Position numbers and translations under genes: made by a program. From positions 1-64,000 of the forward strand of contig JAULBX010025718.1 of NCBI GenBank assembly GCA_032358255.1: 64,000 bases of DNA. The letters run 5' to 3'. The DNA is from Heterotrichella gracilis (Eukaryota; Sar; Xanthophyceae; Tribonematales; Xanthonemataceae). The notes beneath the pieces were generated by a model. It did no database searches. It had not been told where the DNA came from and worked only from the letters and a program-made list of their open reading frames with translations. How positions within the stretch are numbered: the first letter of the stretch is position 1; the number at the start of each line of letters is the position of its first letter. Below, piece after piece: positions 1-64,000 of the stretch.

Positions 1-154
1 TCCACATGCATCCACCATCCACCACCCACCACATGGCACATGGCACCGCTCCCACCTCACACATATGCACACGCTGCACCCCCACCCTCAAACGCGCACC
101 CCCATCCCCCACCCACCACCACACCCCAACCCACCATCCCCCACCACCCCGCAG

Positions 155-855
155 GCCCTGGTCTACCCTTGGTACAAGCACTATTACGCCCACCTGCCCG
201 ATCCCCATGCCGCACGTCCCGGTCCCCACAATTCGCTGTGCATCACCGGGGATGCGTGTGATGAGCTGGTGGCCAAGGGGAACGCGACAGGCGCCACCCA
301 ACTGCAGGAAACACCCGTGGCGTTGGGCCGGCTAAGGGAGTGAGTTGCACTGCATTTCGCTGCTTTCAGGGTGCATGCATATAACCTGCATTGTGTCATT
401 GTGTGTCAGGGGCACATGCCCATGTACCTAATGCAATCTGGATTGTGTCACCAGGGTTAAACACCCCCGCATTATGTCACCTTCAATGTTACGACACAGT
501 GTAGTGTATGCTTACTTGCACAAGGCATCTGTCCCTGCTTGATGCCCAGGCCTGCTTGATGCTCTAGCTCCCAAATAAATTTATCGAGGTCTACTCCTCC
601 TCAGCGTGACTAAATAGGACAAGAAGATGAGTGCCCCTGTCCTCCTCCCCTGTTCCCACCTTTGACCTCCCCGTTCCCCCCTGCAGGCTGCTTGAGCCCA
701 TGTCCCCCTCCCCTGTCATCTACCTCACCTCCCTGGTAACCCTAGAGGGGGGCCAGGAGGAGGGCGATGCGGTCAGGCAGGGGGTGCAGGACATGGCGCA
801 GCAGTGCCTGGGGCGAGCTGAAAGGGACAGCGTGGAGTTGGTGGTGCCGCAATAA
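155..855 (+). CDS. 3'-terminal two exons of an unrecognised gene (5' end outside window)
   Basis: Exon A (155-339) follows a pyrimidine-rich tract ending in CAG and reads ALVYPWYKHYYAHLPDP and onward; it ends at a strong donor (GA|GTGAGT at 340). Exon B (687-855) follows CTGCAG and reads LLEPMSPSPVIYLTSLV through GVQDMAQQCLGR to a stop. Exon A leaves two bases and exon B supplies one, so the frame is continuous. If the donor at 340 is not used, translation stops at 341-343. I do not recognise the family; both exons have GC-rich coding character. The 5' part lies to the left of the window. Confidence 0.45.
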
Positions 856-979
856 CGACCAGTGGTCGGTGATTCAGTGCTACCACCACCCTAGGGTTGA
901 CAGCGGCAGAGGGGATGGAATGTGCTTGCATCGCTAGGCTCAGGGGTTGAAGAAGGCGGGGGTAGAGCCCTTCCTACGA

Positions 980-1062
980 GGTGCATTTAGGCAGGGGGTG
1001 CAGGCAATGGCGCAGCGGTACATGGGGCGGGGTGACGGCGCCAGTGTGGGTGTGGTGTTGGC
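980..1062 (+). repeat. degenerate downstream copy of the exon B end
   Basis: The stretch resembles 765-848: both contain AGGCAGGGGGTGCAGG followed by ATGGCGCAGC, and the translations FRQGVQAMAQRYMGR and VRQGVQDMAQQCLGR align. It lies beyond the stop of the preceding gene and has no downstream partner exon, so it is read as a local partial duplication. Confidence 0.6.
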
Positions 1063-1808: not shown

Positions 1809-4195
1809 TTATGCCGGCAGCAGTCGCGTGAGCAGGGTGTATGTCCCCCCCGCCAGCAGCAGCGCCCCGCTTGCAGGGGTGAGCCACGCAGAGAATTGGC
1901 GCACAGACAGCAGGCGGGCAAGGGCGCCCTGCAGGACCGCAACATTGTGGACAAGATGGTAAAAAGGCTTGCCAAGCTGGGCTTTAACAATAAAGTGGAG
2001 TGGTTACGACAGTAACTACCATACATACTACGAATATACCCATTCATTTGCATATATGTGAATAGTCCGATATATTTAATGTGTATGTTATCCCATCATG
2101 GTTGTTCCACCTAACATGATATGCGTAATATCATTATGCAAACAAAGCGGCACGGCGATTTTGTGGCGAGGGGGTTTCATCTCTGCACATCAGCAGTTGT
2201 GCATCCCATCCCACCCCATGCGCACGCACCGTGAAGGCAGCTGCGCCCAGCAGTGGCGCCACATAACCCGTGGTGTAAGCAAGCAGCAGTCCCCCCCCAA
2301 GGATTGGGTCCTGTGTTGATGACACGTATGCCAGCAGGGTGGCTAGCACAGGGGTGGAACAAGGGGAGGCAGCCAGGGCAAAAGTCAGGCCTGCCAGGTA
2401 CGCCTGCAGGGGGAGGGGGTCCATTAGTGAGTAGGGTTTTGGGTTAATAGGCCTGGCGGGGGGGGGACTCTTCCATTCTAAAGGGCATTTTCCAATGGTC
2501 CCTGCAAGAAGGACCCTCGCGGTAAGAGGGCATGATGGGCAAGAAGGCATTGCCCTGGTTCTTCAAAGCAATGCATCAATGATCAGCGTACAATTTATTA
2601 CTTGTACTTTTTCATCCCGGTGTCCCCACCTTGACCAGTGGCGGCACCCCCCATTGGCGCACATCCAGGTCCAGCGATGGGAACCTCAGTGGCAGCACCT
2701 CAAGCAAATTGAGGCCCATCAGAATGGCAACCAGGCTCACAGCTGCAAGGGGGGGGAAGTGTACATATGGATAGCTGGATCAGGTCACGATAAAAATAAA
2801 AATGAAAGGGTTTATGCTGACGATTTCAGGTTAGAAATGGATTGGGGAGGGGTTTTGTGGGTTTAATTTCAGGGGTAGCACAGCAGCAGGTTGAGGCCCA
2901 TGAGGATAGCAACCAGGCTCACAGCTGCAAAGGGGCAAGGTGTATGCATTGCCAACGTCGATCGGGTCAGGTCAGGCATGGCATGCTAAAGGGTTTTCGT
3001 TGGCCATGTCAGGTCAGAAACAAATCGCGGATTATACGATTGGTTAAAACGCTGATACTAGAGTTTGGCAAGGGCTTACTAGGTTTTGCCTATCGGCAGC
3101 CCCGGACCAATGCTCCCATACGCCCTCCCCACCAGGCTAGACACCACCCCCAGCACAGCCAGGGTGGTGGCCAGGCCAGCAGCAAACGCAGCCGATCGCC
3201 CCGCCAAAAAGTTGGCTTTACTAAGGTTTCACATCCAAATTAGCAGGGTATTATCAAGGGTTTCACCAGGGTTTTGATAGGATTACCGTACCTATCGGTA
3301 GCCCCGACCCAATGCTCCCATACGCCCTCCCCACCAGGCTAGACATCACCCCCAGCACAGCCAGGGTGGTGGCCAGCCCAGCAGCAAAGCCAGCCGACCA
3401 CTCCACCGAACAATTGGCTTTACTAAGGTTTTACATCCAAATTACCAGGGTTTTATCAAGGGTTTCACCAGGGTTTTAATAGGGTTACCGTACCTATCGG
3501 CAGCCCCGACCCAATGCTCCCATACGCCCTCCCCACCAGGCTAGATACCACCCCCAGCACGGCCAGGGTGGTGGCCAGGCCAGCAGCAAAGGCAGCCGAT
3601 CGCCCCGCCAGCGCCACCCCGTTCTGATCGTTGCCCCGATCGTAGCCGCCGATGTATCCGATCGTCAGGGGGAGGACGCTCAAGGTGCAGGGGGAGAGAC
3701 TGGTGGCCAGGCCTGCCCCGGTGACAATAATGAAAGTGACGGGGGTGACACCTGGGGAGGGGGGGTGGGTCAGGTGCTGCACCGGCACATCCACTCACCC
3801 TAAACCTAAAAAGATCCCACGTCAGGTATTAAAGTCGATCCCCCTAAAGCTTGCACCAGGCTAGCAGTACCTGTAGCTAGCTGCCTGTAGCTAGCTGTTG
3901 GCTATCAATAATTTGAAACCCTAAACCCTAGATGGAGATACCTGCCAGCTGCTGCGCCACCAGGGCATCCATCTGCTGGCCCAGGCTGTACAGGGTGTCC
4001 GAAAAGCCCTCTGCTGCCCCAGAGGCCGCCCCCAGCACCAGGCTGTGTGCTACCACCCCTTGGCTGTGCGTCAGGGGGAGGAGGGACAGGGAGTCAACGG
4101 GGAGGGCGGCGCGGGTGGGGGTGCGGGTGGGTGTGCGGGTGGTGGGGCGCGGGAATGGGCGGAGGCGGTCTGTGAAGTGGGGGCCAGGGGGGTGA
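1809..4195 (-). CDS. CCDA: Plastid cytochrome c biogenesis protein CcdA (thiol-disulfide transporter)
   Basis: Family role: a thylakoid polytopic membrane protein that passes reducing power from stroma to lumen for apocytochrome c haem attachment. Exons in gene order: from about 4195 to 3942, then 3751-3494, 2742-2630, 2403-2230 and 1928-1809 (stop TAA at 1811-1809); phases match at every junction. Both catalytic cysteine motifs are visible, [15 protein letters not shown] in exon 2 and [15 protein letters not shown] in exon 4, and the C-terminus ends [20 protein letters not shown]. Exon 1 ends [20 protein letters not shown], as in plant CcdA. Upstream of that the frame is rich in Thr, Arg and Pro, like a transit peptide, but I could not fix the start codon, so the 5' limit is approximate. 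Introns carry partial copies of exons 2 and 3. Confidence 0.93.
2880..2932 (-). repeat. partial copy of the CcdA exon 3 5' end
   Basis: About 45 bp encoding [13 protein letters not shown] with its upstream TTGCAG acceptor repeats the start of functional exon 3 (2742 downward). It breaks off after this point and leads into unrelated intron sequence. Confidence 0.85.
3089..3612 (-). repeat. 202-bp tandem repeat carrying the CcdA exon 2 3' end (three copies)
   Basis: The block beginning CCTATCGG on the plus strand starts at 3089, 3291 and 3493, an exact 202-bp period. Each unit holds about 120 nt of exon 2 coding sequence, its 5' splice-site region and about 75 nt of intron containing AGGGTTT motifs. 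The rightmost copy is part of the functional exon. The middle copy keeps a GTACGG donor; the leftmost has GC instead of GT. Upstream exon sequence is missing in the two extra copies. Confidence 0.9.
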
Positions 4196-6292: not shown

Positions 6293-7438
6293 CTATAGGA
6301 AATCACCAAAAACAATTGCGCCTGTCATTATATTGTCGTAATTTTTATTTAGTCGTTTCTGAATAGCGGATAATATCTGATCTCTTTCTTCTTTTGCACG
6401 AAGCTTCGACTTCTCCCACAATCTGCGGTTGAGCTCCTCTTCAGAAAGCGCCCAACAGTCGCATCGATATCGCATTGGTTGGTAGCCCAGCCGACCCCAG
6501 CTGCCAAGTCTCGACAAGTGCACTGCTGTTGCACAAACACAGCCCCAACATCAGAATGGGCTCAGTGTATGTAAGGATCATGCGCTGGAGGGGAGAGTGA
6601 CGAACAATAATGTACAACAACGTACAGGTAGTCTTGTCGACATGGCATTTGCAAACCACACTACACAGGGAACACAGGAACCTGGTTTAAGAACACAGAC
6701 TGCCATTGCAGCAAGGTCTGGTCAGACAATCTGGGCCAAGAAAGTGAACACACAGGCATACCTCATCTTTGAGGTTCAACTCTGTTTGCAGACTAGCAAA
6801 CAGATATTCCCGTTGGCAGACCAGCTTCTCTAGTTCAGCCATCTCCTTGTCAAGCGTCAACTGAAGCTTCTCCATATATTGATTGTGCGCTTGTCTGCGT
6901 GCCCACATCTTTCGCCAGTGCCATGGCCACAAAGTGCTTGTCACCTCGCTGTCCACCAATAAGTTCTCCAGCTCCACCTGCTGACCAGGGCATTATTCAG
7001 CTGCATGGATACCGGGTGCATAGCCCAACCGAACCCTTCTTACGTTGGGAATTCTACCTGTCACGAAGAATAAATATCTCTTCTCCAGGCCTATGCGTGC
7101 ACTTGTCAAGGGTGCCCTCGCATACCTAGTCACACCCTTGCAACTTGCCGACCCTCCACCAACGCACACACCAACCACCAACAGTCAGCCAGAGCTTGGG
7201 TATTTGGTTATTGGACATAAAGTACCTCAAATTTCTTCTCCTTGGGCTCCTTGAGGAACGACCACTGGCGCTCGTGCTCAGCCACCTCCTCCCGAAGCTT
7301 CTCCAACCTGGCTGCAAGGTCCAGGATTTGCCCAGCGCCTTCACCTGTGTCTGTGCTTGCGCGCCTGGCTGCGGTGGCGCTGATGGGCCTGAAATGGGCA
7401 GAGGCACGCAGCAGCGAGCCACCTGCGAGCCTCAGCAT
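6293..7438 (-). CDS. Predicted organelle-targeted coiled-coil protein, three exons
   Basis: Exons 7438-7226, 6977-6762 and about 6436-6293 join in phase 0 and give about 190 residues. The N-terminus (MLRLAGGSLLRASAHFRPIS, then AARRAS) is Arg/Ser/Ala-rich with no acidic residues for 30 positions, which suggests a mitochondrial presequence. The rest is strongly charged and heptad-like (LEKLREEVAEHERQW in exon 1, LDKEMAELEKL in exon 2, EKSKLRAKEERDQIL in exon 3), so a coiled coil is likely. The last exon's acceptor is the weakest call. I do not recognise the family; respiratory-complex assembly or scaffolding would be a guess only. Confidence 0.55.
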
Positions 7439-8518
7439 CTTGCAACTACGGAAGCACTACTTTCACGGGAGGGAGACCAACAGGCGGGTTCAAGGGCTAG
7501 GGTTAGGGTTGCCCGCGAAACCGGTGCTACCTGGCCTAAGCAGCCTGGGGGCTTGACCCTGCGGGTATTTGGTGCCTGAGGGTTCGAAGTGTTTTCTGCG
7601 ACCTAGGCAACGAGCGACCTGCTTTCTTTCAAAGGTCTCCGTTGAGCATGCATGCATGTGCCTGAACATTCGCTCCCCGTTTCCTGTCCACTGTTGTCTT
7701 TTTTCTCAAAGGAAAAGCCATGGGCTTGTGCATTTTATGGTATGCAAACAACCACAGCAATCTTGTTCCTACGATGTACAGAAGCCTGTTGCCCATCTCG
7801 TGCATGCATGCATGCATCCGTGGCATGCAAGCATCTGTCGATAACAATTGCTGCACACAAACATAGCCAAGCTGGAAGCCACACCGAAGTGGACTGTAAG
7901 AGCTGCAAATGCCATTTCACAACAATATCTCCGTCTGTGTGTCCCAAAGCTGTAACAGAGCTAGCCAAAGAGGACCATGCCAACCAAGGAAAAAAGGAAA
8001 AGAAAAGAAATGCACTGCGCATCAGCTGCATGCCCTATGATACAAAAGAAAGCCTGTAGACTGGGCGATTTAAGCATGTGCCCACCTGGCTAACGTGCAC
8101 AAAATGGTGGTCTATCTAGCAGTTTCTACAAAAAAGAAAAGCAGTGTAGGATGTAAAGAAAGGGAGCCGGCGCACGTGCCACTTGGCATCCAGGCCAACA
8201 TAAAGTAAACAAAACAGTAGATGGCGGTGGGAGTAAACATCAGGGCGGTTGTATAACCAGTGGGAAGACCAACCATGCCCAACAGCGGTGCCAACACCTG
8301 GCACCACCACCCCCTGCACTTCCCACCTGGCCGCGCCGCAGGCCAGAAACCCTGAACCCTAAACGCTAAACATCTGCCTTGCCGCAGTTCAGCCTATACC
8401 CCAGCCCTGGACCACGATCCAACCCAGCACCAGTGAGCCATGCCACAGACCGCCCTCACCGCTCCTCCGGGTGCGGCAGATACTGCTCCCTGAACCCATG
8501 ACCCTACACCCTAAACCC
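7439..8518. other. no supported gene
   Basis: Contains the upstream region of the coiled-coil gene and the sequence downstream of the GT90 gene. Visible items are an interstitial CTAGGGTTAGGGTT stretch near 7496, ATGCATGCATGC runs at 7800-7818, and a copy of the GT90 exon 4 end at 8455-8490. Confidence 0.55.
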
Positions 8519-10844
8519 TCACCGCTCCTCCGGGTGCGGCAGGTACTGCTCCAGCGCAGGCCCCAGCACCTCGGCCAGGGGTTTAGGGTTTTTGTAGTCG
8601 GACAGCTGGGGAGTGAATTTGAACAGGCTGCCGTACACATCCATCAGGTGGCGCATGTAGCACATCCTGCCCTGCTGCGAAAGCTGGTGGGCGGCAAACT
8701 GCTGGCCCGCCTGGGCAATGGCGTGGGCCACGTGGTCGTTGGCACGCAGCCAGTCAACCACCTGCAGGAAAAGGAAGGAAAGTGAAGCCAATATTTTACC
8801 AACAATTTTGGCCATAAATTGGCCAATATTTTACTCCATATTATGGACTTCAAATGAAGAAAAGGCTATTGACATGGCGGCTACATCAAAGCTGTCTTTG
8901 CTCCAGGTTGAAGGCATGGCAAATTTGAGGCAAGTTACCAAAAGCAGCCCTGGTGCGTTTTGCTTCATAGATAAAACCCAAATGTGCGGTGAGAATGTGC
9001 ATGCAGGCGTGCGCAGGCGCACCTCAAAGATGTCATTGGGGCTGTTGACGTTCACGGGCACGTAGTGCACCCAGGGCTTGAACCCCGCCCAGTAGTAGAG
9101 GTCGGTGGTGCTGGTGTGGCGCAGCACCAGCGTCCCCCCCGCCAGGTACTTTTGGATCTTGGGGGTGACCGTGGTGCCATCCGCCACCAGCACATACTTG
9201 TACTCAAAGTGGTCCATGAAGCTTCGGGTCCAATTTGACATTGAGATGTTAAGGTAGCCGGCGGTGGGCCCGCTGGCCCCCTGGCTCAACTCCTGGTAGA
9301 ACCTGCGCACGTGGGGGATGGACTCGCCCGCCCGGTTGCGCCCCGAGTCCCCATAGTGGTCCTGGTAGCGCGCAAAAGCCACCGGTTTGCGGTTCTCCCA
9401 CAGGAAGCGGGGCTCGGTCCGCAGGCGGTGCATGCGCGCCAGCCACTCGTCGTACTGCCGCAGCTCAAACATGCCGTCCACCATGGCGATGGCGAAGGTC
9501 TGGTCGCGGCCGCGGCAGTACTGGAAGGCGGGCGCCAGCTTGCCGTTGGTGCTGGGCTTGGTGATGGCGGGGGGATCGGTCATGGGGAACAGGATCTCCA
9601 CATCTGGAACCTGGAAAAACAGCCAGTGCAAGTGATGGGTAAGCAGGGCTGCATGCAGTGTTATTTTATTACATAAATTGGGATTACACTTCAATTGGCC
9701 TGCGAGTGTGGACGGGGCTGTGTAAACATGAGGGGCGAGACAATTAAAAGTAAACTAAACATGGGTTTTTTTTTGTATGTATCTGCATTTCAACATATAT
9801 TCCTTTGTTTCTTTATTCACCTTGACGTGCTTGGTGAGCTCAATCAACACGTTGGCTGTGTACAATTTAAAATAAGACAAAAGGAACAACATACCTGAAT
9901 ATAAACCTATATTCCTTTCGTTTCATTCACCTTGACGTGCTTGGTGAGCTCAATGAACACGTTGGCAGTGTACAGCTGCACATCCCCCGCGCTGCGCCAC
10001 CTGCGCTCAAAGGCCTGGTCGTTCATCTTCACCTCCGCCTCATACACCGTGTTGTTGATGATGGCCAGCTTGAACCACAGGAAGTGGGCTGCGCCCTCGG
10101 GGAGCGCAGACATGTCGGTGTGGCTGCGCTCGATGCCCGAGAACCAGGGGGAGAGGTCGGAGTAGATGCCTGCGTGCGGGGGAGGGGAGGGGAGTCAGGG
10201 TGCACAAGCCAAGGCAGTTTGCTAAGGAGCTGCGGCAGGCTTTTGTGGGCCTGATATTTTGTGTAGGTTTCAGATTCAGATGTTCTAGGTCCTGCATGCA
10301 TGGCAGCCAAATGGTGAATGAGTGGAGCATGGATGGCGGGCAAATGGTGCGCGAACAATGCATGCATGGCGACCAAACCTCGCACACATGATGCCCCATG
10401 GTTGTGTGCAGCAAAATTGCCTGCCCATTTGGAACCATACATGAAATCCAAGTAAACTTCCAATTTGTTTTCCGTTGGACTGGGATTGCATTGTGCTTTA
10501 TAAACGGCATGGCGGGGAAAGATCAAGACGTTTGCCTTGGGGCATGGCAGGCTGAACCGCAACCCCTGCACAAGCCCTTGGGCGGTGGTGTGGGGGGTGT
10601 GGGGCACAGGGGTTGTACAGGGTTTGATTACAGGATGCAGGATGCAGGGCTTTGGGTTTAGGGTTTGGTCACAGGGTGTAGGGTTTAGGGTTTGAGCGAT
10701 ACCTGGGAATAGGTCTGTGTACTTGTGGCAGCTGGCGGGGACTGCGATAGGCGCTGGGGACCAGGGGTGGACGGTTGGGATACATACTGATAGGAGCACA
10801 AGCCACGTGGCAGTTGCCAGGTGTCCGGTGTGGCTGCCCCGCAT
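8519..10844 (-). CDS. Glycosyltransferase family 90 (CAP10/POGLUT-like) protein
   Basis: Four exons with consistent phases: 10844-10703, 10169-9931, 9610-9023 and 8761-8519, giving about 403 residues. The N-terminus (MRGSHTGHLATATWLVLLSV) is a likely signal peptide or anchor, placing the enzyme in the ER/Golgi. The GT90 core is clear: VPDVEILFPMTDPP opens exon 3, followed by KYVLVADGTTVTPKIQKYL, LVLRHTSTTDLYYW and PWVHYVPVNVNSPNDIFE, then WLRANDHVAHAIAQAGQQFA in exon 4. This matches the sugar-nucleotide-binding half of CAP10/Rumi-type O-glucosyl- or O-xylosyltransferases. The exact sugar and acceptor cannot be read from sequence. The stop TGA overlaps a possible donor (CG|GTGAGG), so a further 3' exon cannot be excluded. 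Confidence 0.9.
9800..9866 (-). repeat. partial copy of the GT90 exon 2 3' end with its donor
   Basis: About 65 bp repeat the segment at about 9910-9976: both hold TATTCCTTT, then the donor region, CACCTTGACGTGCTTGGTGA and the GTGTAC block. Only the exon end and adjoining intron are copied. A second such copy, of the exon 4 end (CACCGCTCCTCCGGGTGCGG), sits at 8457-8490 next to the functional one at 8519-8552. Confidence 0.85.
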
Positions 10845-50100: not shown

Positions 50101-53090
50101 TTCTGCAACCATCCAGGGGAGGGAATGATGACAGTGACCCTAGGAAGGGTAATCAAACAGAGGGTGGGTGAGAGCGTTCCCCGTGATTCAATTCTGTCAG
50201 CATTTTCTTGTATCTTGGGTGGGGTGAGGCCCGCCACTGCTTGAGCGATCTGCCAAGCCATGGCCTTGCAACACAATCGGTGTTGTTATATTGTTCCTCC
50301 TACCTGTCACCTGTTGCCCACCCTTTTTGGCGTGGCGCACCAAATACCCTAGGGCATCCACCATAAACTAGCGCACATGAGGGACGCATCTTAGATTACA
50401 GCCAGTCGAAACGGTGTACCCCCACAGGCGAAACCCCACGTAGCCAAATACAACACAGCCCACAGCCACAGGCGAAAACCCCACCTGCCAGCAGGCGCTG
50501 CACGCCTTTCTTCAGCGCAGCGGGTTTCGCCTGGCGCATTAAATACCATAGGGCCTCCGCCATATAATGGCGCAACGCGAGGATACAGCCAGGTGAAACA
50601 GCGCACCCCCACAGGCCAAACCCCACACTGACAAATGTGAAATAACCCATAAGCAAAACCCCACCTGCCAGCAGGTGCTGCACGCCCTTCTTCAGCGCGG
50701 GGGTTTTCGCCTGGCGCATCAAATACCCTAGGGCTTCGGCGGACAGCTGGCGCACGTGGGGGGCGGCCGCGTGGCGCAGGCGGGCGGTGGCCTTGAGCAC
50801 CCATGGCAGGTCCAGCGCCAGGTGCTTTGCCAGGTGCTTGCATATGGTGCTGAGGGAGGTGAAGAGGTGCTGGAGGGTCTCGGGCTCGCGGTCCAACCCT
50901 AGGCGAGGGTTAGGGTTAGGGTTAGGGTTAGGGCTTGCAAATGGTGCTGAGGGAGGGTGAAGAGGTGCTGGAGGGTCTCGGGCTCGCGGTCCAACCCTAG
51001 GGGTTTCGGGCAGGGGTAAGGGGTAGGGTGAGGGCTAGGCTTAGGGTTAAAGTGAGGGCTCACGGTTCAACCCTGAACCAATCTAGGGCAAGTGTGGTGG
51101 ATTCCAAGATGAGATGGGGTGGGGGTGCAGTGTGGGGAGCTGCTTACATGGATGCCGAATCCTTAAACAGTAAACCCTAGCCCCTTTATAATAAGCTTCT
51201 GCCTACAGCACACCAAAAACCCTAGGCAACTTCCAAATGGCGCGACGCCCCGAACCACACACACCCTCCCACCCTCCAAACCCACGTCCATCCACCCACC
51301 CCTCTCCACCAGGTCCGCAAACGCGGCCGCCACCCGCGGAAAGTAGGGCACATAATCCTTCTGCAAATCCCTGGCCAGCACCGCTGTCAGCTGGAAGAGG
51401 GGCTCCAGCGACAGAATCTCCTCCATTTTCATGGTGTCCAGCAGGCATTGTATTATCTCCCCCTGGTGGTGCAGCAGCTGAGGTAGGGTGGAGCACAGGG
51501 GGGTGACTGTGGCAGACACGCGGTGGAAACCGGCGGCGCTGTTGAGCTCCCGCCAGGTAACCAGGGTCTCCTGCAAGGGGGGGAGTTGAGTAGGGAGAGG
51601 GTGGAAGAGGGTGAAGATGGGGCCCTTGGGCTGTGCCAAAGGGTGTGCATTGCAGGGTGCAGGGTGCAAGGTGTAGAGTATAGGGTTGATCACAGGGGAT
51701 TGACCACACTCGACATGCGGTGGAAACCAGCGGCGCTGTTAAGCTCCTGCGGGGCGGCGAGAGGTGTTCACTGGCATTTACTTGGGAATGGCTTGAAGGG
51801 AGGATGGGATAGGGTCATGAAATACACATGGTGAACCAGAATGTGGCGTGCGGCGTTCGGCATGATGTATCATGCACTGCAGATCCACCATGCATGCAAT
51901 CCATCTGACGGTATGCACATGCTTTGTGGCGCACTCCCCTCACTTGGAAGACTGGCCGCGCACCAACCAGGGTGTTTTAAGGGTTTAGGTTGTAGAATTG
52001 AGAGTGTGCCATAGCGCACTCTTACCTGGAAAAGTGACTGCGCTCACCCTTTTCTAGGGATTAGGGTGTGCCATAGTGCACTCTCACCTGGAAGAATGAC
52101 TGCGCCCCATCCCTAGGCTCAGCGCGCACATCACCCAGGCGCCGGTACACATCCACTTGGATCTGAAAATTGGGGGGGGTACCACTTGTCAGGGTTGAAG
52201 CACTAGGGTATTGGGTGTAAGGGCTCGGGTGTAGGGTGCACATCGAATGTATCTGGGAATGGGGAGGGGTACGCTCGATAGGTTTCAAGGGGTGTAGGGT
52301 TGAAGGTCCGGGTTTACACGTGTAGCAAGCCTTTGCAGTGTGGGCTCCCTGGCGGATATTGTAGGGTTTTCAGATGCGCAATCACCCACGCACATCTGCA
52401 CGTCAATAAGCTGTTGCATTCTGTGCATACTGTGGGCAAGGTGCGAGCTGTGGCGCCTGGTGAACCCTAACCAAGGGTTTGTCAAGACCTCAGCCAGTCC
52501 AACTTTCGTGTGTTCTGAGTGACTGGGTTTACAGCTGCAGGGAGTGAGGTTTTTAGAGCATATTCCAAATGCCCTAGGTGCTGCACCCAAGCTTGGTCTT
52601 GGGCCGGTCTGATAGGTGACACTACTGGGTTGCATAACCATGCATGCAGTAGGTGAGAAGGGGGCAAGCTTAGCAGTGTCCCCTGGGTAAATAGGATCGT
52701 CTATAACGTCACGGCACGAAAGGTTACTGTGTCGGGCAGTCACGCGGCGCGCATGCATATGCACAATACTGTGGCTTCCTTGGCGGCTTTTTGCGACAGC
52801 TGCCGCACACAAAAGTGCTGCGCCAGCGCGACCCAAGGCTGCGCTCCAAACACGTCAAAATTTGCGTTTCTATATCGCAAGTGCGATGCAAGTCTCCCAC
52901 CAACAACAGGTGCCTTACGATGAAGCATTAGCGATCGGTCGTTTGCATATGCATGCATGCATGTTGTGGTTTCCGATTCCGTTGCCAGCTGCGTTTTCCC
53001 CACCTTTCCCACGCGCTGTGCAAGCTTGGCGAAGCGATGTGTGTTCTTCCTGGGCTGTACATCGCCTCGCTCTCCCTCGGAGTCCGACAT
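29245..53090 (-). CDS. UTP20: UTP20 (DRIM), small-subunit processome HEAT-repeat protein, 44 exons
   Basis: Known role: a nucleolar component of the SSU processome/U3 snoRNP needed for 18S rRNA maturation and 40S assembly. Identification rests on many segments that read as UTP20: WRELNSAAGF and EEILSLEPLFQL near the N-terminus, VEVDFFSNVAHLQLHRRTRA mid-protein, RDPARQVFSSMAADLGPSYL, QFLLDYPLGEKRMQQHLEFL, and a Lys/Arg-rich C-terminus ending RRSKY. I place 44 exons whose GT/AG boundaries and phases all agree. They sum to 8844 nt, about 2947 residues, slightly longer than the human protein (about 2,785). Start: MSDSEGERGDVQPRKNTHRF at 53090; stop at 29247-29245. The extra length is in acidic or low-complexity linkers (exons 14, 28, 29, 42). 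Exon coordinates are given in the four block entries. Confidence 0.96.
32310..32420 (-). repeat. Copy of the UTP20 exon 37 3' end
   Basis: About 100 bp repeat 32507-32605 (shared GACTGGTCGTTGACCAGGCG versus GACTGGTCGTTCACCAGGCG, then AGGAACAGCATGTCA and CCCTCCACCACCTCCC). The copy sits in the intron 3' of the exon. Confidence 0.9.
34925..35315 (-). repeat. Copies of both ends of UTP20 exon 32
   Basis: 34931-34985 repeats the exon 3' end (CACCTGCAG...GGAGCTGCAGCTTGCTCTTG, functional at 35031-35090). 35235-35310 repeats the exon 5' end with its acceptor (CTTGGCCAGCAGGCCGTA, then GAGCGAACCATCTTGGCCTC; functional at 35138-35205). One exon thus has flanking copies on both sides. Confidence 0.9.
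36000..36062 (-). repeat. Copy of the UTP20 exon 30 3' end
   Basis: Repeats 36090-36150 (CCCTTACCTTTGCCACCGC versus CCCTTACCTTGGCCACTGC, then CCAGCACTGC and GAACCCCAG-like blocks). Three tandem telomere-like heptamers (36061-36085) lie exactly between the two copies. Confidence 0.85.
36715..36775 (-). repeat. Hexanucleotide repeat inside UTP20 exon 29
   Basis: About ten tandem GGCTGT units (plus strand) with one GACTGT variant. In the gene frame they encode an alternating Thr-Ala run (one Val variant), preceded by a Thr-rich stretch and followed by IQTALTQRVLPALQSQLV. The frame is fixed by the neighbouring exon phases. Confidence 0.8.
41076..41150 (-). repeat. Copy of the UTP20 exon 20 3' end
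   Basis: Repeats about 41238-41310 (CGATCGGCCGGACTG shared). Copies of the same exon's 5' end are at 41500-41535 and 41570-41615 (GGTTTCCAGGGAC and GGCGGTGGCCATTA blocks; functional 41437-41480). Confidence 0.85.
42219..42292 (-). repeat. Copy of the UTP20 exon 18 3' end
   Basis: About 70 bp repeat 42407-42480 (CTACCTCCACCGTCATCCTC versus CTACCTCTACCGTCATCCTC, then CCACCGCCGCCAGCA). The copy keeps GT at the donor position. Confidence 0.9.
44000..44165 (-). repeat. Two degenerate copies of the UTP20 exon 15 5' end
   Basis: 44018-44050 (AGCTTCAGCAGGCGCTCCA) and 44125-44160 (ACTCCAGCAGCCGATCCATG) resemble functional 43922-43955 (AGCTTCAGCAGCCGCTCCAT). Confidence 0.75.
44995..45055 (-). repeat. 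Copy of the UTP20 exon 14 5' end
   Basis: Repeats 44855-44912 (GGGGTACCCAGTCATTGGCA versus GGGGCACCCAGTCGTTGGCG, then GGGGAGGAGAGGGCACC). Confidence 0.85.
45690..46190 (-). repeat. Minisatellite built from the UTP20 exon 12 3' end
   Basis: At least five degenerate copies of the exon end and donor (functional 46211-46250, CCTCACCGTATGTGCATGGC, then GGCTGTGCACCA) occur at about 46139-46180, 46029-46078, 45850-45870, 45768-45806 and 45695-45722. They are separated by ACCAAAACCCTGCCACC-like telomere-related spacers. They fill most of the 691-bp intron 12. Confidence 0.85.
45894..45990. repeat. 36-bp tandem repeat
   Basis: Unit CCCCAGCAATGGGTTTGGGG followed by TTTAGGGTTTAGGGGG starts at 45900 and 45936, with a partial third at 45972. 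It combines a telomere-like pair of heptamers with GGGGCCCC. It lies inside UTP20 intron 12. Confidence 0.85.
46945..47003. repeat. AAT/AAC microsatellite in UTP20 intron 10
   Basis: Imperfect runs of GATAATAATAAT changing to AACAATAACAAT repeats, the only clearly AT-rich simple repeat inside the UTP20 gene. Confidence 0.9.
49590..49835 (-). repeat. Two copies of the UTP20 exon 5 3' end
   Basis: Units at about 49590-49690 and 49712-49830 repeat 49900-50020 (shared CCAGCAGCAGCG, CTTCGAGTGCAGGCCGTGCG versus CTTGGAGTGCAGGCCATGCG, and CGACTCAGC). The left unit is more degenerate. Each is about 100-120 bp. Confidence 0.88.
50315..51000 (-). repeat. Copies of both ends of UTP20 exon 4
   Basis: The 3' end is copied at 50484-50590 and, more degenerate, at 50318-50375 (CACCTGCCAGCAGGCGCTGC, then GCGTGGCGCA/GCCTGGCGCA; functional 50662-50770). 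The 5' end with its acceptor is copied at 50934-51001 (GGTGCTGAGGGAGG, GTGCTGGAGGGTCTCGGGCT; functional 50846-50905). Confidence 0.9.
50907..50933. repeat. TTAGGG hexamer array
   Basis: Four and a half perfect tandem GGGTTA units, directly between the functional exon 4 acceptor and its upstream copy. This is the six-base form, unlike the TTTAGGG heptamer found elsewhere in the window. Confidence 0.9.
51930..52046 (-). repeat. Two copies of the UTP20 exon 2 3' end
   Basis: Functional donor region 52079-52115 (ACTCTCACCTGGAAGAATGA) is echoed at 52016-52045 (ACTCTTACCTGGAAAAGTGA) and 51937-51965 (CCCCTCACTTGGAAGACTGG). Confidence 0.8.
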
Positions 53091-53648: not shown

Positions 53649-55820
53649 ATGGCCTGCTCGTTGCATTTGAGAGGGGTGCATATGTGCCCGCCACCTGCGG
53701 CAGTACCGCCACACCACGGCGGCTTCAGGCGGCCGCTACCACAAGCGCGTGGGCTCGCCAGTGGACTGAACCAACGCTGTTCGCATTACCCTTCCAGGGC
53801 CCTCAGAAGGAGACCACAAACGGTGCGCATCTTGGGTGCATGTATGCATGCATATATGCACTATGTGTGTGGGGGGGGTCAGTCCTGCGCTCTGTGGGAA
53901 CCTGCAAACTTCCAGGAGTGCGTGTACATCCACAGACATGTTCTTGAGCATCCACATAGACCTAGCTCTGAGCGCCCGGGTTGCTGAAGTACGCCACACT
54001 GCACTAGGTTTCACCGCCACACACGCGCGCGCTACATTTGATGCAGCCCTTACCTTTATCCCCTGATGGCACACGCCCTCACCCCCACATCATCCACCCC
54101 ACCACCTGCCAACCACCCCGCATCCCCACCCCACCACCCTGCCTCGCCACAGGCCACAGCCACCTCCCAGCAGCCCCCCATCCTCACCAGCACAAATGTC
54201 TGGGACTACAAGCCTCCCTGGTGCCAACCCTACACCATCCTGGGGACCGGGGCAGCGCTGGTTGCAGGCACAAATTACATTTCTGGGGGGTCGTGGGGGT
54301 GGACGGCGTTTGTGGGGATCCCCATCGCGGCATGGTGGTTCCTTTTTTTGGTGCTGTACCCCCGCCAGTTTGCTGAGTATGCTGAGGAGGCAATGGCTGT
54401 GGAGGCGGCTCGGAGGGAGATGCTGGAAGCGAAACGGGAGCAGGTGGGAGAGCGATAGGCGGGGAATGATGGGGAAGTCCATGGGGGATTGTGCTATTTT
54501 GGGAACCGTTAATGTTTGTGGCCAGTGGGGGCACCTAATCATGTTGGCAACTGTGGCTAGACCCTGGCTAATAATTGGTGGCCCAGGGATCCCACCTGGC
54601 TACAGGTAGTCCCAGGGTGTTTATAGGGGGTAAGTTGCTTTGCCTCTTTTTAAATATCAAAGTTTGGCTAATGGATATTTGACCGGGGGTAAGTTGGTTT
54701 GCCTCTTTTCAAATATCAAAGTTTGGCTAATGGTGCGAAGCAGTGTCAGCCATTCCATGCTCCGTGGCAATGCTAGCATGGTGTTCATGGGGTGAGTGTG
54801 CCGTGAGCCCTGCAAACACACACGAACAAATAGCCCTGCAAATACACATGAACAAATACACATAAACACTGTGCCGGCTTTCTCCCTGTGGGCTGCTACC
54901 TGTGGGCGTTTCCTTTCTTGCTTGCTTTCTTCCCACAATTTCCAAGCTCTCATTTGACATGCTTTCCATGCATCCAACCCAGGCGGCCGCCACCATGCCC
55001 TGCAAGTAAAAAGAATACATATAAATTAATTGGAGGGGGGGGGGGGACATGAACAGTGTGCTGGGTCTTGTTCCACAATGCCTCACACTCTCACTTGACA
55101 TTTTTGTGTTATTATCACTTGATGTTATCATTATTGTTATCACTTGACATGCTTTCATGCATCACACCCAGGCGGCCGCCACCAAGCCTGCACAGCAGCA
55201 GGAGGCGCCAATGGTGGGTGCGCACTATTCCATGTGCAATGACCCATGTGACATGGGTATATAACCTGCTGCATGCATTCAAGGGTATACTCATAATACT
55301 TAGTTTTAACTACCACTACATTCAGCTTATGTACCTGAACTTTGCGACGGGATAAAATGGGGAGCACGAAAGTGCGGTAAGCGGCACGACTGGTTGGCCA
55401 CCATCTGCCACACTTGAAAGAGTGTCAGTTAAGCCTTGGCTCTTGGACTGGGGTGAGGCATACCCAGACATGCTAACCTGGCTTCGAAGCTGGAAAGCAA
55501 ATACTTACTTACTTACTTACATTCAGCTTATGAGCTAAGTAGTAGTAGTAGTATGCCCCTGATACATTGCCACGTCGCGTGTGCGCATGCTGCAACGAAT
55601 GAGTGCACTTGTGTGTGTGGATGGTGGCCGCGCATGTATACCCAGCGTGCACGTGCTTGCACAGGCTGTCGAGTCGGTGCAGTGGACTCCTCGGGTCGAG
55701 GAGCAGAGGAGGCCTGCACAGCCAGCCGCTGAGGTGGTTTCAGAGCGCTTTGATGTGGAAGAGCTCCTGAGCTATGCCAGCTATGTGGATGACGATGGGT
55801 CTGACAGCGACGACGAGTGA
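53649..55820 (+). CDS. DUF6737-like chloroplast membrane protein with acidic tail
   Basis: Four exons, all phase 0: 53649-53822, 54153-54443, 55172-55213, 55665-55820, about 220 residues. ATG in good context (CCACCATGG). Exon 1 is a Arg/Pro/Ser-rich transit peptide (MACSLHLRGVHMCPPPAAVP). Exon 2 carries the conserved core NVWDYKPPWCQPYT, two hydrophobic segments (ILGTGAALVAGTNYI; GIPIAAWWFLFLVLYP) and QFAEYAEEAM. This resembles cyanobacterial and plastid proteins of unknown function. Exons 3-4 add AAATKPAQQQEAPM and a tail ending DVEELLSYASYVDDDGSDSD. If the donor at 54444 (CAG|GTGGGA) is skipped, the protein ends six codons on, at 54458. The 3' end overlaps the neighbouring minus-strand exon. 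Confidence 0.78.
54975..55010 (+). repeat. Copy of exon 3 start of the DUF6737-like gene
   Basis: CCCAGGCGGCCGCCACCATG at 54979 repeats the acceptor and exon start at 55167-55190 (CCCAGGCGGCCGCCACCAAG), with similar flanking CATGCTTTCATGCATC-type sequence. Confidence 0.8.
55332..55517 (+). mobile_element. SINE-like element, copy 2
   Basis: Same body as 26499-26670, with a longer tail of four TTAC units. It is flanked by TACATTCAGCTTATG at 55317-55331 and 55518-55532, a perfect 15-bp target-site duplication. It is inserted in intron 3 of the DUF6737-like gene in the sense direction. Confidence 0.9.
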
Positions 55821-57315
55821 GCATTCCACCTACCCCTCCATAGCTCCTCATCTGTTGCCTGTGAAGCCACATACACCACAGCAGCTGTGACGCAGCTATT
55901 GGCCAGGAGGATGCGCTGGCGTGAGTCGAGCAGGAGGATGATGTCCTTGAGGGGTTCTGCCCACACCCAGCATCCTCCACATCCAGACTCCAGCACCTCG
56001 CGAGCCACTGCGGCGCGCATCTCCTCGCCTGCTGCGCCCTGCATGCCCATTTTGGAAAATTCGATTTTTTTGGTAATTGCCTCTAGAGCAGGTCAACATA
56101 GCAATCAGCCACGGTATATGTAATGACACACCTGGGACATGCCAGATCCACACAGACGCTGACCGCAAGGGCCTGCCACAAGCCATGCAACAAATGTGAG
56201 CCCTGGCATTTACAGATGGTGCAGCAAGTATCTCACTTGAGTGCGTACTTACAGAACAAATGTGCTCAAGGTGATATAGTGTAGAAGCTGGCGCCTATCC
56301 CTGAGTGCAGCAATCACCACCCACCTACGCCGTCCCCTGCACCCCTGTGCCTCACCTGCCTGCCCTTCCCTGGTGCAGCTATGACCACCCACCTGCACCT
56401 GCACCTCAGTGGCTTACCTGCCTCACTAGGTGCTGAGCGAACTGGGCAGTCACACGCTTACTGTGGTCTGCATACTCTTCAGGGCTGTGTGCATACTGGA
56501 TCATGCCCTCTTTTGCCTTGGCCAGCACGCTGTACACGTTTGGGAATCGGGAAAGCCTGGCCTCTGGGAGCTGAGGGATAGGGGCAGAAGAATAGAAGTT
56601 AAGGGTTTAGGGTTGGAAAACTAGGATGGCCGAGCCTCTGGGAGCTGTGGGACAGAAGAGCAGGGGACACGCTCAGGGGCTGTCACAATGGTAGCTTACT
56701 AGTTAGCATCCTGATCATATTTCATCACATCTGATTCACCAAATCCCACTACATTCCATTGTGGGAGAGCTGCCAGGGAGGCGATCTGGGTGGGCATTGT
56801 GGTTGCCATGATCATGCGTGCAAACCCTTTGCTAGGGTTGCTGAGCAGCCCTATCCACGTACGGGTCTTGAAGAGGACATGCATTCCAAATTCAGGCATT
56901 CTGACGCGGCAGGCAAGGACCACAGGCCCAGAGATCTGAGCAGCTTTAGCCAGAAATGGTGTGATCCGGGAAATAGGCAGCTTGCTGCCATGCATGCATG
57001 TTCCGCTGAGTGATGTGCTTTAGCTGAGTGACCGCTCAGGCAAGTACATGATGCGTGAGGCTAGCGTAGCTGCGGAGAAACAGCGACTGAGTGACTGTGC
57101 GACCTGGGAATATAAAATTTGCATTGGTGACATCGGTGAAAGGGCCATCCAGCAGCTTCAACTCCCCAAACACGGTGTGAAAACGCGCTGCCGCAGGCAC
57201 CCCTGTGGCTAGCACTGGTCAGTGGGTTGTGTCTGTACAAGGTGTTGGGACCCACCTGTGGCATGAAAGGAAGTGGGACTTTAATCTCTTCATGGGTTGC
57301 TGCTGAACTGCTCAT
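55781..57315 (-). CDS. Unrecognised multi-exon gene
   Basis: Possible start MSSSAATHEEIKVPLPFMPQ at 57315. Coding-like exons follow: about 57204-57106 (VPAAARFHTVFGELKLLDGP, ending at AG|GTCGCA), possibly about 57000-56720 (ISGPVVLACRVRMPEFGMHV), 56571-56419 (LPEARLSRFPNVYSVLAKAK, donor CAG|GTAAGC) and about 56043-55781 (GAAGEEMRAAVAREVLESGC, stop TAG). The exon 1/2 phase is unresolved with the best donor. The last exon either overlaps the convergent DUF6737-like gene by 40 nt or splices out at GG|GTAGGT near 55830. Family not recognised. A copy of the 56571 exon edge lies at about 56623-56660. Confidence 0.5.
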
Positions 57316-59102: not shown

Positions 59103-61598
59103 TTATGGCACAACCCCAAAGTAGCGGCCAATGGCCTCATCCCGAGCAGCCTCCCCCACCAGCTCAACCTCCATGACCGCCCCCTTGTCATACACCTTGA
59201 GGCAGTGGTCCAGTATCGTGTTCTTGCCACCTGGCGTCTGCCTGGACATGACCAGGCGCGTGGTGAAGAGGTGCTCCGGGAAGGTGGAGGTGTACCAGTT
59301 AAGGATGTCGAAATCCGCGGGGAGGAACTCGTCTTCCCTGGGATTGCGCGGGTCAGGGGTCAGGAAAACAGGTGGAAGTTGACACTTTGTAATTTTGGGG
59401 ACGATGTGGTGGTCGGAAAGGTCAAAAAAAGACCTGCACTTTTAGGTGGAACATGTGTTCTGGGAAGGTGGAGGGATACCAGTTGAGGATATCGAAATCC
59501 GAGGTGAAGGAACTCGTCTTCCCTGGGACTTGGAGGGGATTTGCAAATCAGGGGACATGACTCTGACCAGCCAGTACTTGTGGTAATTCCTCAAGGTAGT
59601 TGCAAATTCCATTGTCTTACGGAATGTCCTTCCACTGCCACTCGTGCCTGTACCCACAAACCTTTGCCGAGGTTGCAAATTAGGATTTAGGGTGCAGATT
59701 CAACCCTCTCTCTCCCTACCTGAAAAAGTATGTGTCCTTCCATTGGCCCTCGATGCTGTACTGGAGGTACCAGCCCACGCTGTGGGGGTTGGCTGCCTCC
59801 TCCTGGGAACTGGGGATTTTCTTGGATCCCGGTAGGCCGCGGCGCAACCTGAAGGCAGGGTGCCAGCATATTGTCAATTGCACGGGATGTGGATAAATGG
59901 ACCGCAACGTGCGAAATTCAGAAGTGCAACACCTAAATGCTAGTGTGATATATCCTGGTGTCATCCCCACCTGAAGGTATACCAGAAGGGCACCTGGGGC
60001 TCAAACGCATCCCCACCCTGGAAGGCCTGCAGCCGCAGGGGCTGCGCCAAGCCAGTGCCCCCAAACCCCACATCAGCCAGCCACCTTCCCTCATCCAGGT
60101 CAACAAACAGGATCCTGTGGTCGTACCCACCCACGCCAGGGTCGTCACTGGTGGGGTCCTGGGGTGGGGGAAGCGGCAGGGTTTTGGTGCGGTTGGTATG
60201 GGGTTGGGGAATGTGCGCATGGCGGCAGGGGAAAGCTATGCTTCGGTGGCGGGGTGAAGTGCAAGCTGGCGGGCGAATGACCGAGGCGAGCAAATGCATG
60301 GGGCCAATGAGGGCTCACGGCTCCTGGCGCTGTGCTACATATGTGGTCTGTGTTTGTAGAGTGTAGCTATAACTGTATCATGCATCTTTATGTAAAGAAA
60401 ATTGGTAACTAAATAGAAAAAATAAAAGAATATAAATGAAGTTTGTAAGAATGATAAAGTCAAATATGATGCGTGCCCAGATGTGCCCGCAGGTGTGCCT
60501 GGTGAGACCCCGCATGCATGCAACTGTCATTGCCAATACAGTCGCATTTGCACCTTGATGACAGGTTTGATGCATTGTATTGGTAATTAAGAGTGATTTT
60601 GTGCCTGTTGCGTGGTGCGATGGCATGCCCTCACCTGCGAGGCAGACGACACCACACGCGCCGCCCCATCGGTGCACGCAAATCCGCATGCGCGCAGCGC
60701 TGCGCCAAAGAGGCCATTCATCTGCGGGGTTGAGGGAGGGTCAGAGGGGTTGCGTGTGAGTACTTACTGCGAGCGCAAAATAGGTCATCACCTGGGATCC
60801 AGGGATGCAAATTTGGCTGCAATAATAATCAAACGGTAATTATTGAAATGCATCCAATCGTGCCTCGTGACTACCGCGCTATTGTGGTTGAGGGGACATT
60901 ATAAGCCCTAAACCCCGAAATGTTGTGGTGCAGGGGCTGGCGAGTATAGACCCAGGCAGGTTGAAGCTGATTGGTTTCAGAGTAGGTGCGTAGATGGGGT
61001 GGAACCAACGCCTCCTTAGGCAGCGTGGGTGCTCCGCGTGGCAATCGAGCTAGGGCAACGGTTTGTATGGCATGTCCTGCACTCCGCTGAGGACACCCGC
61101 AATAGCCCTCGCCATGAAACTGCTAATCATGGTTCTCCCTCGGTGTGGTACACACTATATGCAATGCATTGAATGGCCTAGTGCACACGCTGAGTGTGCC
61201 TTCCATAAGGTAGATATTAGCGCCACTACATGAACTTGCCGCAGGGCCGTGGGTGGAGGTTGTGGTGACCATATGCATGCATACACACAACCCCACCTTG
61301 CACACACTTGCACATCCCACCGTCACGTGCTGCAAGACCCTACCTCGAAACAATAACCCCCTTGCTTCCGCTCCACTATCTTCTCGTACAGCGTCTCCAC
61401 GTCTAGGCGAATCGGTCCGTGGGTCTGCGCGGCTTTTGGGTGCACGATGCTCAGATTTTCAAACGGGATGTGTCGCACATGTTGTAGGTGGAGGGTTCGT
61501 AGGGTGGCGAGGTTGGGCTTGGGAGGCGCGGAGGCTATCCCTGGGTATTGTATTCGTTGCAGGTAGCCTGAGAGGTGCTCGGGACACAAGGTTGCCAT
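59103..61598 (-). CDS. Arylamine N-acetyltransferase, complete, five exons
   Basis: Known reaction: acetyl-CoA-dependent acetylation of arylamines and hydrazines by a ping-pong mechanism. Exons 61598-61344, 60721-60635, 60158-59971, 59848-59720 and 59337-59103 have agreeing phases (894 nt, 297 residues). The catalytic triad is visible: Cys83 in KQGGYCFE, His128 in GGYDHRILFVD, Asp143 in LADVGFGG; the 15-residue His-Asp spacing is the family's. Other family landmarks: YLQRIQYPG and VRHIPFENLSI near the N-terminus, MNGLFGAALRACGF opening exon 2, DFDILNWYTSTFPEHLF and a C-terminal GRYFGVVP. No targeting peptide is seen, so a cytosolic enzyme is likely. Introns carry a copy of the exon 5 start. 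Confidence 0.95.
59440..59532 (-). repeat. Copy of the NAT exon 5 5' end
   Basis: About 90 bp repeat 59262-59345: GGGAAGGTGGAGG, TACCAGTTGAGGATATCGAA versus TACCAGTTAAGGATGTCGAA, and GGAACTCGTCTTCCCTGGGA with the acceptor. The copy lies in intron 4. Confidence 0.92.
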
Positions 61599-63144
61599 TG
61601 GGGGGCGTGGAGTTTTCTGGGACCTTGCGAGACTGGGTGTACACTTAGGGGAGACCCCCGCACTAACAGCAGGGCAAAACTATAAATGGTATGTGAGATG
61701 AATAGTGGTTCCCAAGCTCTATTAGGGAGCGGATGTTCACTGGGTCACCCACGGTGGCAACATGGGTACCACTGCATGCAAGCGGATGTCGCCCAGCCTC
61801 AGTCACCGAGTCAGTAACCTCGACGGCAACCTGCTCGTAACCTCTATGTTGTCAGCAAGTCTAGTGGGCCATATGGCGCCTTATGGCAGCATGCACAGAA
61901 CTAGCTGACTAGCGGCTAGGCACCAGGTTTCCAGACACCCTAGGTTAGGGTCTTGAAGGTGAGTCGAGGCCCTCGGTGACTGAGTCGGAAAAGGAATTTG
62001 CCTGCTTTGTTAGCCTTCACTGTGATAGGTGATTGAGTGTTGACTGGTGCACTACCGTGCTGTTGCCATATTGACGCTCGTAGGCACTGTCAGCGAACTC
62101 TTTGTGCGAGTGGTGTAACCTGGCGGTTCAGTACAGTGAGTTGGCAGCTTTCGCGTAAATTCGTGCCATCCCGGACCGCTCTCAAATGGTGCAGTAAGTT
62201 TGTGGCTGATAAGTATATTTTACTGCACCCTGGCCAAAATGGTACAGCTTGTAAGTATATTTCGTGACTGATAAGTATATTTTGCTGGTACAGTTAAGTA
62301 ATTCTTACGGGACGAAAGAAATAATCCGAAGAGAGATTGGGATATTGATCAACCACTTTACAGTGCCCGGCAGTAGGGGTCTCAAGAACGGAAGGATGTG
62401 GGCACGCGTTTTCAACGGGAGTAACCTGGTGTATGCATGCTGGGCGAGGTTCGAGCTGGCCAGTTACTCGAACTCACGGGTGCCTTGTGATGTATGTTGA
62501 GGGAGTGGGTTGTTTCCTTTTGTCCTTGTATCGATAACCAAGTCCGGTGTGCACAGCTAAAGCCAAACTACACAAGTGCTTTTGGTCACTATAAGTCGTG
62601 ATGCATGCAAAGTTTAGGGTTTCCACTGGATTTTAGGGTTCAAGCTAGCTAGAGCTCAGCCTGAAGTGCAGCTACGTCACCTTGAGCCAAGTGCCAGGAG
62701 TATAAAGCAAGCCAGTGTTTGTACATACAGCAAGCCATAACCTGCGTTTTCCCTTCGTGTTGCTGCCGACCTCCCATCGCACGCAGGGTGTGCAAGCACC
62801 ACTCCTCGATTGCATAGGTGCATACGCCGGAGGACTAGGGGCGTGGAAGATGGCGCGAGCTGGGTCAGTGTTGGCCAGGGGTTGTGGAGGGTGGCAACAG
62901 ATGTTCGCTGGCCACACCAGTGGCCACATCGGTGGTATGCCGTCAGCGTCCCTCGCAATTGCTGACTGCCTGGGCGCCAATCAGGGTAGGTGCTCGGCAT
63001 GAATTCGTGCTGGGTCGTTGATTCACCTGCACAACACACAATAGTGGTACACAAGACTGTGTGTTTGACTGAGTAAGGGAGCGCATGCTCGTACCAGTGA
63101 CCTTGTTTTAGAGTGCAGGCAGCGCAACGAGCCTGTTAGGTTGC
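61599..63144. other. divergent intergenic region, no supported gene
   Basis: Between the starts of NAT (-) and D-lactate dehydrogenase (+). A short imperfect repeat of GATAAGTATATTTTACTG / GATAAGTATATTTTGCTG occurs at 62209 and 62269. No convincing coding sequence. Confidence 0.55.
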
Positions 63145-63891
63145 TTGCACCATATGCATGCATGTCATCTCTATGCCGGTTCCGCATGCGTGCAGTTGGC
63201 CACACCTTTACAACGTGTTTGCACCCTGACCGTACACTCAAACACCCGCATCCACTCATCCACAGCCACCGCCCCCACCACCCCCTACCACCCCACCACC
63301 CGCCACCTGGCCACCGCCACCCCCTCACCCCCCCTGGACGAGACCCAGCTGCAGCGCCTGCGCGACACCCCCATAGCAGTGTTCTCAGCATCACGATACG
63401 TGCGGGAGTTCATGAAACCACTGGAGCAGGACTTCCACAACATCCACTATTTCGAGGTGCGCCAAGGAAAAACCCTATGGCCAAACCCTTGCCTCTGAGG
63501 ATGCGGATAGAACCCCGATCGCCAAGCCCTACATGGATCAGATGCCTTAGGTAGGGTTGAAACAGCTGGCTCAACAGTACCCTCCGAGGTGGCCTGCCTC
63601 ACCAGTCCTAAACTCTAAAGCCTCTTGAATCCATTGTATGGTGCGTGCAACAGTATGGGCTTGGCATATAATAGGAGATGCTTCACAAGATATAGCTTGT
63701 CATATTGTATTGGCGCAAGGCCGTATGCCATTTAGGTTTGCTATGTGCTTGCCCTAGAGTGTGGCATTAGGGTTTTGCATGATCTAACCCTAGGGTTTTC
63801 CTGCAGGCTCGCCTGGACAAGTTCAACGCCAAGCTGGCGCGTGGCTGCGAGGTGGTCAACCTGTTTGTGAACGACGTATGCGACGCAGAGG
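63145..63891 (+). CDS. D-lactate dehydrogenase (D-2-hydroxyacid dehydrogenase), 5' part
   Basis: Two exons: up to 63456 (FE|GTGCGC) and about 63807-63891 (after CTGCAG, ending AG|GTAAGT). Joined in phase 0 they read IAVFSASRYVREFMKPLEQD, then NIHYFEARLDKFNAKLARGC and NLFVNDVCDAE, the N-terminal substrate-domain segment of LdhA-type D-LDH. The enzyme reduces pyruvate to D-lactate with NADH, an algal fermentation step. The preceding about 65 residues are Thr/Pro/His-rich and resemble a targeting peptide. The start at 63145 is only the first in-frame Met of that exon. The NAD-binding half lies beyond the window. Confidence 0.85.
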
Positions 63892-64000
63892 TAAGTCCAC
63901 AGGTGTAGGGGTTAGAGTTAGTTATTGACTGAGACCACATTGGTACGAGGCCGCAGAGGCGCAGCACCTCATCTGCACGCTACCCACCTCAGGAGTGAGC

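Follow-up and report, generated by a model that had tools for sequence, protein, structure and literature searches.

Inspection of a 64-kb stretch of DNA (hereafter the window, meaning the whole stretch analysed, on contig C320 of a draft assembly that totals 68.5 Mb in 903 contigs) had led to the original prediction that segments spanning an exon end, its splice site and the adjacent intron recur as degenerate copies within that same intron, in several unrelated genes. This raises the question of whether such copies exceed chance expectation in this genome and, if so, what process places them at exon borders and what becomes of them afterwards. Beyond the window, we sampled 25 loci of 10 kb and ten 3-kb loci around telomere-repeat sites. 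Because 43 exon-level matches to light-harvesting proteins were found in the genome, its sequence identifies the source organism as a photosynthetic eukaryote; a search for the RuBisCO large subunit yielded no match. Genes were delineated using a gene-finding hidden Markov model self-trained on the window and 22 host loci, which returned canonical splice sites and 434 introns with a median length of ~255 bp. Three of the 25 loci (L003, L014, L018) are AT-rich (one contig measuring 894 kb), carry no predicted introns and are probably bacterial-like (contaminant) or organelle sequence within the assembly. Pfam matches in the window covered UTP20 domains (the C-terminal match lying just below cut-off), DsbD_TM (CcdA-like), GT90, DUF6737 and N-acetyltransferase (NAT). 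The window also holds a 62-bp stretch (1366-1427) that is 90% identical to its own reverse complement, as well as two genes with tandem 126-bp (42-residue) protein repeats, at 22111-24788 and 26142-28531, which we take to be armadillo-like and which were excluded from the pair counts below, the first self-alignment apart.

Self-alignment of the window and 20 loci yielded 110 direct local pairs versus 11 inverted ones, 14 of the direct pairs being accounted for by the two armadillo-repeat stretches, while a Markov-3 shuffle of the same material, made once per piece, gave none. After masking of telomere repeats, clustering of hits and removal of the armadillo genes, all 25 loci plus the window contained 108 direct pairs versus 33 unclustered inverted hits, six of the latter from the three bacterial-like loci. 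The direct pairs have the short units and direct orientation of small tandem duplications (offset of 83-246 bp in 95 of the 108), they range from 63 to 97% in identity, and at some loci they form three-copy arrays. Rather than adjoining one another, the aligned copies are separated by a spacer of at least 10 bp in 92 of 108 pairs, a length inflated by decay and by masking of the telomere repeat.

We then asked in how many introns one of the bordering exon edges is duplicated, using introns of at least 120 bp with 60 bp of sequence on either side, a score of at least 20 as the definition of a copy, and exon edges borrowed from other introns as the chance level. A degenerate direct copy was present in 79 of 376 tested introns versus ~0.6 by chance (18/45 in UTP20, 6/31 in the rest of the window and 55/300 at other loci), confirming exon-edge duplication within introns. 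Donor edges were copied in 43 of the affected introns, acceptor edges in 45 and both in nine (~0.3 expected per side), hence the two sides are affected alike, both 5' and 3' exon ends having been named in the original prediction. The share in UTP20 is nearly that originally put forward (17 of 44 exons), a correspondence of proportions, our UTP20 model having 51 exons and calling some copies exon. Affected introns are longer (median 370 vs 254 bp).

The copies are anchored at splice junctions. Of the 29 pairs with an identity of 85% or above, 28 involve an exon or junction, none is intron-only and one is intergenic; at 75% identity or above the corresponding numbers are 76, 6 and 7. We considered whether this could be an artefact of circular gene models, an explanation that we rejected as a telomere-blind gene model (with one noncoding model) gave an identical 28, 0 and 1 at 85%, and 77 junction, 8 intron-only and 4 intergenic pairs at 75%. 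Unmasked re-alignment, which covered 91 of the 108 pairs, gave 56 junction, 2 intron-only and 7 intergenic pairs at 75% or above; the one-junction pairs of any identity comprised 27 on the donor side and 25 on the acceptor side. For comparison, duplications were simulated anywhere in and around introns, exon-internal ones were purged and the same detection was applied. The simulated number of junction pairs per intron-only pair was 1.4-1.9 when divergence was moderate and climbed to 6 and 31 when it was highest; with an identity floor of 75 or 85%, three indel settings gave 1.6 to 2.8, the range set against the observed pairs above 85% being 1.7 to 2.8. The observed excess over such uniform tandem duplication with exon-internal loss, together with the 55 affected introns at other loci, bears out the view that a genome-level process acts across unrelated genes.

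The spacers brought an unanticipated feature to light, as neither telomere-repeat spacers nor junction anchoring figured in the original prediction. In the host loci, the strongest enrichment among 7-mers is that of TTTAGGG rotations (up to 13.6-fold), and CCCTAAA arrays open contigs C70 and C140, identifying TTTAGGG/CCCTAAA as the telomere repeat of this genome. Its exact 21-mer occurs 834 times genome-wide (reversed control: 0), and the places listed are spread over many contigs, some in terminal arrays. Between copies, telomere 7-mers account for 13.1% of bases, as against 7-9% in the flanks and 2.45% in other intron sequence. Such 7-mers are present in 55 of 92 spacers, where 200 random sets averaged 19.9 and never exceeded 33, and the other 37 spacers have none; in this coverage and spacer survey the intergenic background includes 30 kb of bacterial-like loci, which the block surveys exclude. 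Copies were found in 59 of 167 introns with the repeat versus 20 of 209 without (odds ratio 5.2, p = 1e-9), an association that holds in three length classes below 450 bp and is absent in introns of at least 450 bp. Direct repeats flank 24 of 46 intronic telomere blocks of at least 21 bp, compared with 6 of 135 control intron sites, and at loci chosen only for the repeat they flank 8 of 21 blocks, or 8 of 19 distinct ones because two loci overlap. Blocks of at least 21 bp are intronic in 46 of 48 cases (39/48 under the telomere-blind model), whilst the 130 blocks of at least 14 bp divide into 120 intronic, 7 intergenic and 3 exonic (103, 12 and 15 under the telomere-blind model, where the intron excess drops to about fourfold).

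Within the window these features are seen in UTP20 (29245..53090, minus strand, as are all features below except that in DUF6737), where the youngest pair, 50836-50894 and 50933-50992 (97% identical), encloses a spacer (50895-50932) in which 27 of 38 bp are telomere 7-mers, telomere-like sequence also lying upstream of the outer copy. In the acceptor-edge pair 35131-35195/35241-35305 (94%) the spacer 35196-35240 holds 15 bp of telomere 7-mers, and in two donor-edge pairs the repeat is confined to the spacer, namely 34926-34984/35026-35084 (92%; spacer 34985-35025, neither flank) and 36001-36061/36089-36149 (75%; 24 of 27 bp in spacer 36062-36088, none in the flank). The donor-edge pair 42216-42291/42402-42477 (91%) has telomere-like sequence behind each copy, the pair 49707-49825/49900-50018 (76%) has 34 bp of telomere 7-mers in its spacer, and intron 45526..46216 combines several exon-edge copies with 103 bp of such 7-mers. 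Both copies of the pair 32322-32414/32511-32603 (89%) are called exon in the gene model. The copies claimed for the CcdA, GT90, NAT and DUF6737 genes were upheld by the intron test or by pair alignment. In the CcdA-like gene these comprise the pair 2686-2787/2869-2969 (76%, spacer telomere-like), an acceptor-edge copy in intron 2743-3089 by the intron test and, in 3089..3609, an exon edge near 3494-3609 with further copies at 3089-3206 and 3291-3409, through which the frame remains open in the gene model. The intron test further identified donor-edge copies in GT90 introns 7389-8522 and 9611-9930. Spacers devoid of telomere 7-mers occur in the GT90 donor-edge pair at 9780..9974 (87%), the DUF6737 acceptor-edge pair at 54950..55192 (plus strand, 89%, intron 54444-55171) and the NAT acceptor-edge pair at 59265..59537 (83%, intron 59338-59719). 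For the 55781-57315 gene, where a copy had been called probable, an acceptor-edge copy in intron 56571..56752 is marginal (score 21).

The position of the repeat relative to the copies was resolved in 60 of the 108 pairs (13 were dropped for an unclear flank and the others for spacer length): it lies in the spacer only in 19, in the intron-side flank only in 4, in both in 20 and in neither in 17. The excess of spacer-only over flank-only pairs supports insertion at the junction (p = 0.0026; several pairs can come from one array and are not independent, thus this and the other p values are too small). Both sides carry the repeat in 11 of 18 young pairs, and the spacer resembles a flank in 24 of 72 pairs, matching neither in the other 48. 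Telomere purity rises weakly with pair identity (rho 0.20, p = 0.088, 74 of the 108 pairs), and the repeat is present in 16 of 21 young versus 28 of 53 older spacers (p = 0.073). Along introns, the repeat is most frequent between 10 and 40 bp downstream of the donor and between 20 and 50 bp upstream of the acceptor, reading mostly CCCTAAA on the sense strand, and this clustering near splice sites is also present in introns without a detected copy. Sense-strand CCCTAAA and TTTAGGG 7-mers number 648 vs 189 in copy introns and 301 vs 169 in others, a bias for which selection on splicing could be an alternative cause. Spacers with both orientations mostly run from C-strand to G-strand in the sense direction, while the order test across all introns leans the opposite way (49 to 33); these results conflict, and repeat order was set aside as evidence on whether telomere repeats are added to both ends.

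Once formed, the copies decay. In the 32 pairs whose exon and intron portions were both of sufficient length, identity is 86.6% for the former and 80.6% for the latter. Differences between exon copies (73 of the 108 pairs) amount to 13.9% at the first codon position, 9.5% at the second and 21.1% at the third. At 19.4%, intron divergence is roughly double the 9.5% of second codon positions, the two values coming from different subsets. This pattern is compatible with one copy under selection and the other free. We rejected the codon-position differences as proof of constrained decoys, because a constrained exon, a free copy and GC-rich third positions predict the same. Translating two UTP20 copies split a domain match in two and lowered it from 197 to 184.7 bits, hence these copies look like intron, and the split match together with the decay pattern suggests that such copies, at least, are spliced out.

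The process varies between regions. Ten host loci (L005, L007, L010, L011, L013, L015, L016, L017, L019, L022), picked after their low counts had been seen, have 1 affected intron in 132 while the remainder has 78 in 244, and across the 34 genes in which four or more introns were tested the copies are over-dispersed, concentrating in certain genes (p = 3e-6). A second organism behind the copy-free loci was rejected, given that codon use and splice motifs match. Pair offsets in the window and loci cluster around 105 bp and around 190 bp, and most pairs lack a hidden middle copy (present in 5/32 of the larger-offset class and 2/37 of the smaller).

Taken together, these observations suggest chromosome-end repair chemistry at work inside genes at exon borders. 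Our main reading, to which we assign a probability of about 0.5, is that short staggered breaks would recur across exon-intron borders, their overhangs would be filled in, telomerase would add telomere repeats to the exposed end and the ends would be joined, giving an exon edge with its splice site, a telomere spacer and a second exon edge with its splice site. Events confined to the exon would damage the protein and be lost, while those reaching the intron would be spliced out from the original splice site and persist, lengthening the intron as the copy decays. A higher break rate in exons combined with loss of exon-internal events would suffice to target the borders. Published work in mammals describes staggered breaks that received telomere repeats and whose flanks were duplicated (PMC7215372, PMC2246262), as well as short tandem duplications produced at 3' overhangs by the chromosome-end fill-in complex (PMC8355091), and combining the two would explain the copy-telomere-copy structure. 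Several results go against this main reading: the pairs with the repeat on both sides (20/60, and 11/18 young), as slippage would give, which could arise by re-duplication of a first event, as the three-copy arrays suggest; the C-strand-then-G-strand order within spacers, opposite to that of telomerase acting on both ends; and the weak purity-identity trend alongside the 37 of 92 spacers without repeat. A further possibility, which we put forward tentatively, is that transcription or splicing marks exon borders for breakage and the chromosome-end machinery heals them, so that introns grow by splice-site duplication with telomere spacers, in which case the sense-strand bias would reflect the exposed strand.

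The both-side pairs are what one would expect if telomere-like repeats already present near splice sites caused slippage or template switching that re-copied the exon edge, the repeat being part of the duplicated unit. This explanation, a serious rival although the less probable of the two, would also account for the 24 of 72 spacers that resemble a flank, the repeat peak in introns without a detected copy and the three-copy arrays, while the spacer-only excess (19 vs 4) and the 48 of 72 spacers matching neither flank argue against it. Ordinary, uniform tandem duplication followed by purifying selection, with the telomere repeat as an incidental passenger, draws on the direct orientation and modest units of the pairs, on slower decay of exon parts favouring detection of exon-anchored pairs and on the simulated ratio climbing at high divergence; it is unlikely in view of the 76 junction versus 6 intron-only pairs at 75% or above, set against simulated ratios of 1.6 to 2.8, and of the telomere association over all introns, though this is gone at 450 bp or more.

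That selection retains the copies as spare splice sites or alternative exons we judge very unlikely: open frames in some copies, as in CcdA, and uneven codon-position differences speak for it, while the twofold intron divergence is as expected for a free copy and the two translated UTP20 copies split their domain match. Still lower we place intron gain, whether through exon sequence duplicated in tandem or through an introner-like element, for although copies adjoin splice sites and introns are abundant, a donor in one copy with an acceptor at the matching place in the other was found in 1 of 97 pairs, on which basis gain by tandem duplication was rejected. No more credible is an assembly artefact through unmerged haplotypes or misjoined reads; the assembly is indeed a draft that includes bacterial-like contigs, but the wide span of pair identity, an anchoring at splice junctions that is invisible to an assembler and the 0 direct pairs in the three bacterial-like loci all oppose it.

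These findings bear on how introns lengthen in compact genomes: a growth process is visible here in about one-fifth of the sampled introns, and the copies it leaves can be dated and bear the signature of chromosome ends. Were this process confirmed, it would tie telomere chemistry to gene structure, provide many natural decoy splice sites and predict mappable break sites at exon borders. Related scars are known elsewhere: patch-mediated break repair in rice and paired nicks in plants reportedly leave short tandem duplications with occasional filler, which share the short tandem unit with our pairs, while to our knowledge neither telomere filler nor splice-junction anchoring is a feature of them.

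The original prediction, which knew of no named mechanism doing this, is not supported as worded; each step has published mammalian precedent, and the exon-edge copies with telomere spacers are best described as a variant of known repair scars. They resemble the short interstitial telomeric sequences of mammals in that the repeat is the organism's own, short and dispersed inside contigs, and the mammalian case of a staggered break with flank duplication resembles our pairs (PMC7215372, PMC2246262). According to the same reports, such duplications are a minority in mammals (horse, 3 of 66 loci, with mixed changes at another 2; rodents, 6 of 130; primates, 4 of 25) and 31% of human interstitial telomeric sequences are intronic, compatible with random placement, whereas here nearly all blocks of at least 21 bp are intronic (46/48; telomere-blind 39/48) and about half are flanked by direct repeats. 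CST-guided Pol alpha-primase fill-in makes small tandem duplications in human and mouse cells that are likewise short, direct and attributed to staggered breaks, by an enzyme also active at telomeres, but, as described in the accessible part of PMC8355091, they lack telomere spacers and splice-junction anchoring. Introners, too, are a recurrent genome-wide change in introns; they create introns, with target duplications of 3-9 bp where described (PMC9860276), whereas the process seen here lengthens introns that already exist and duplicates tens of bp. The literature examined, at the level of titles and abstract openings and with most subscription papers outside its scope, held no report of splice-edge copies with telomere spacers. 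Each ingredient is known in mammals, and the prevalence, the preference for introns and the anchoring at splice junctions are described in none of the papers examined.
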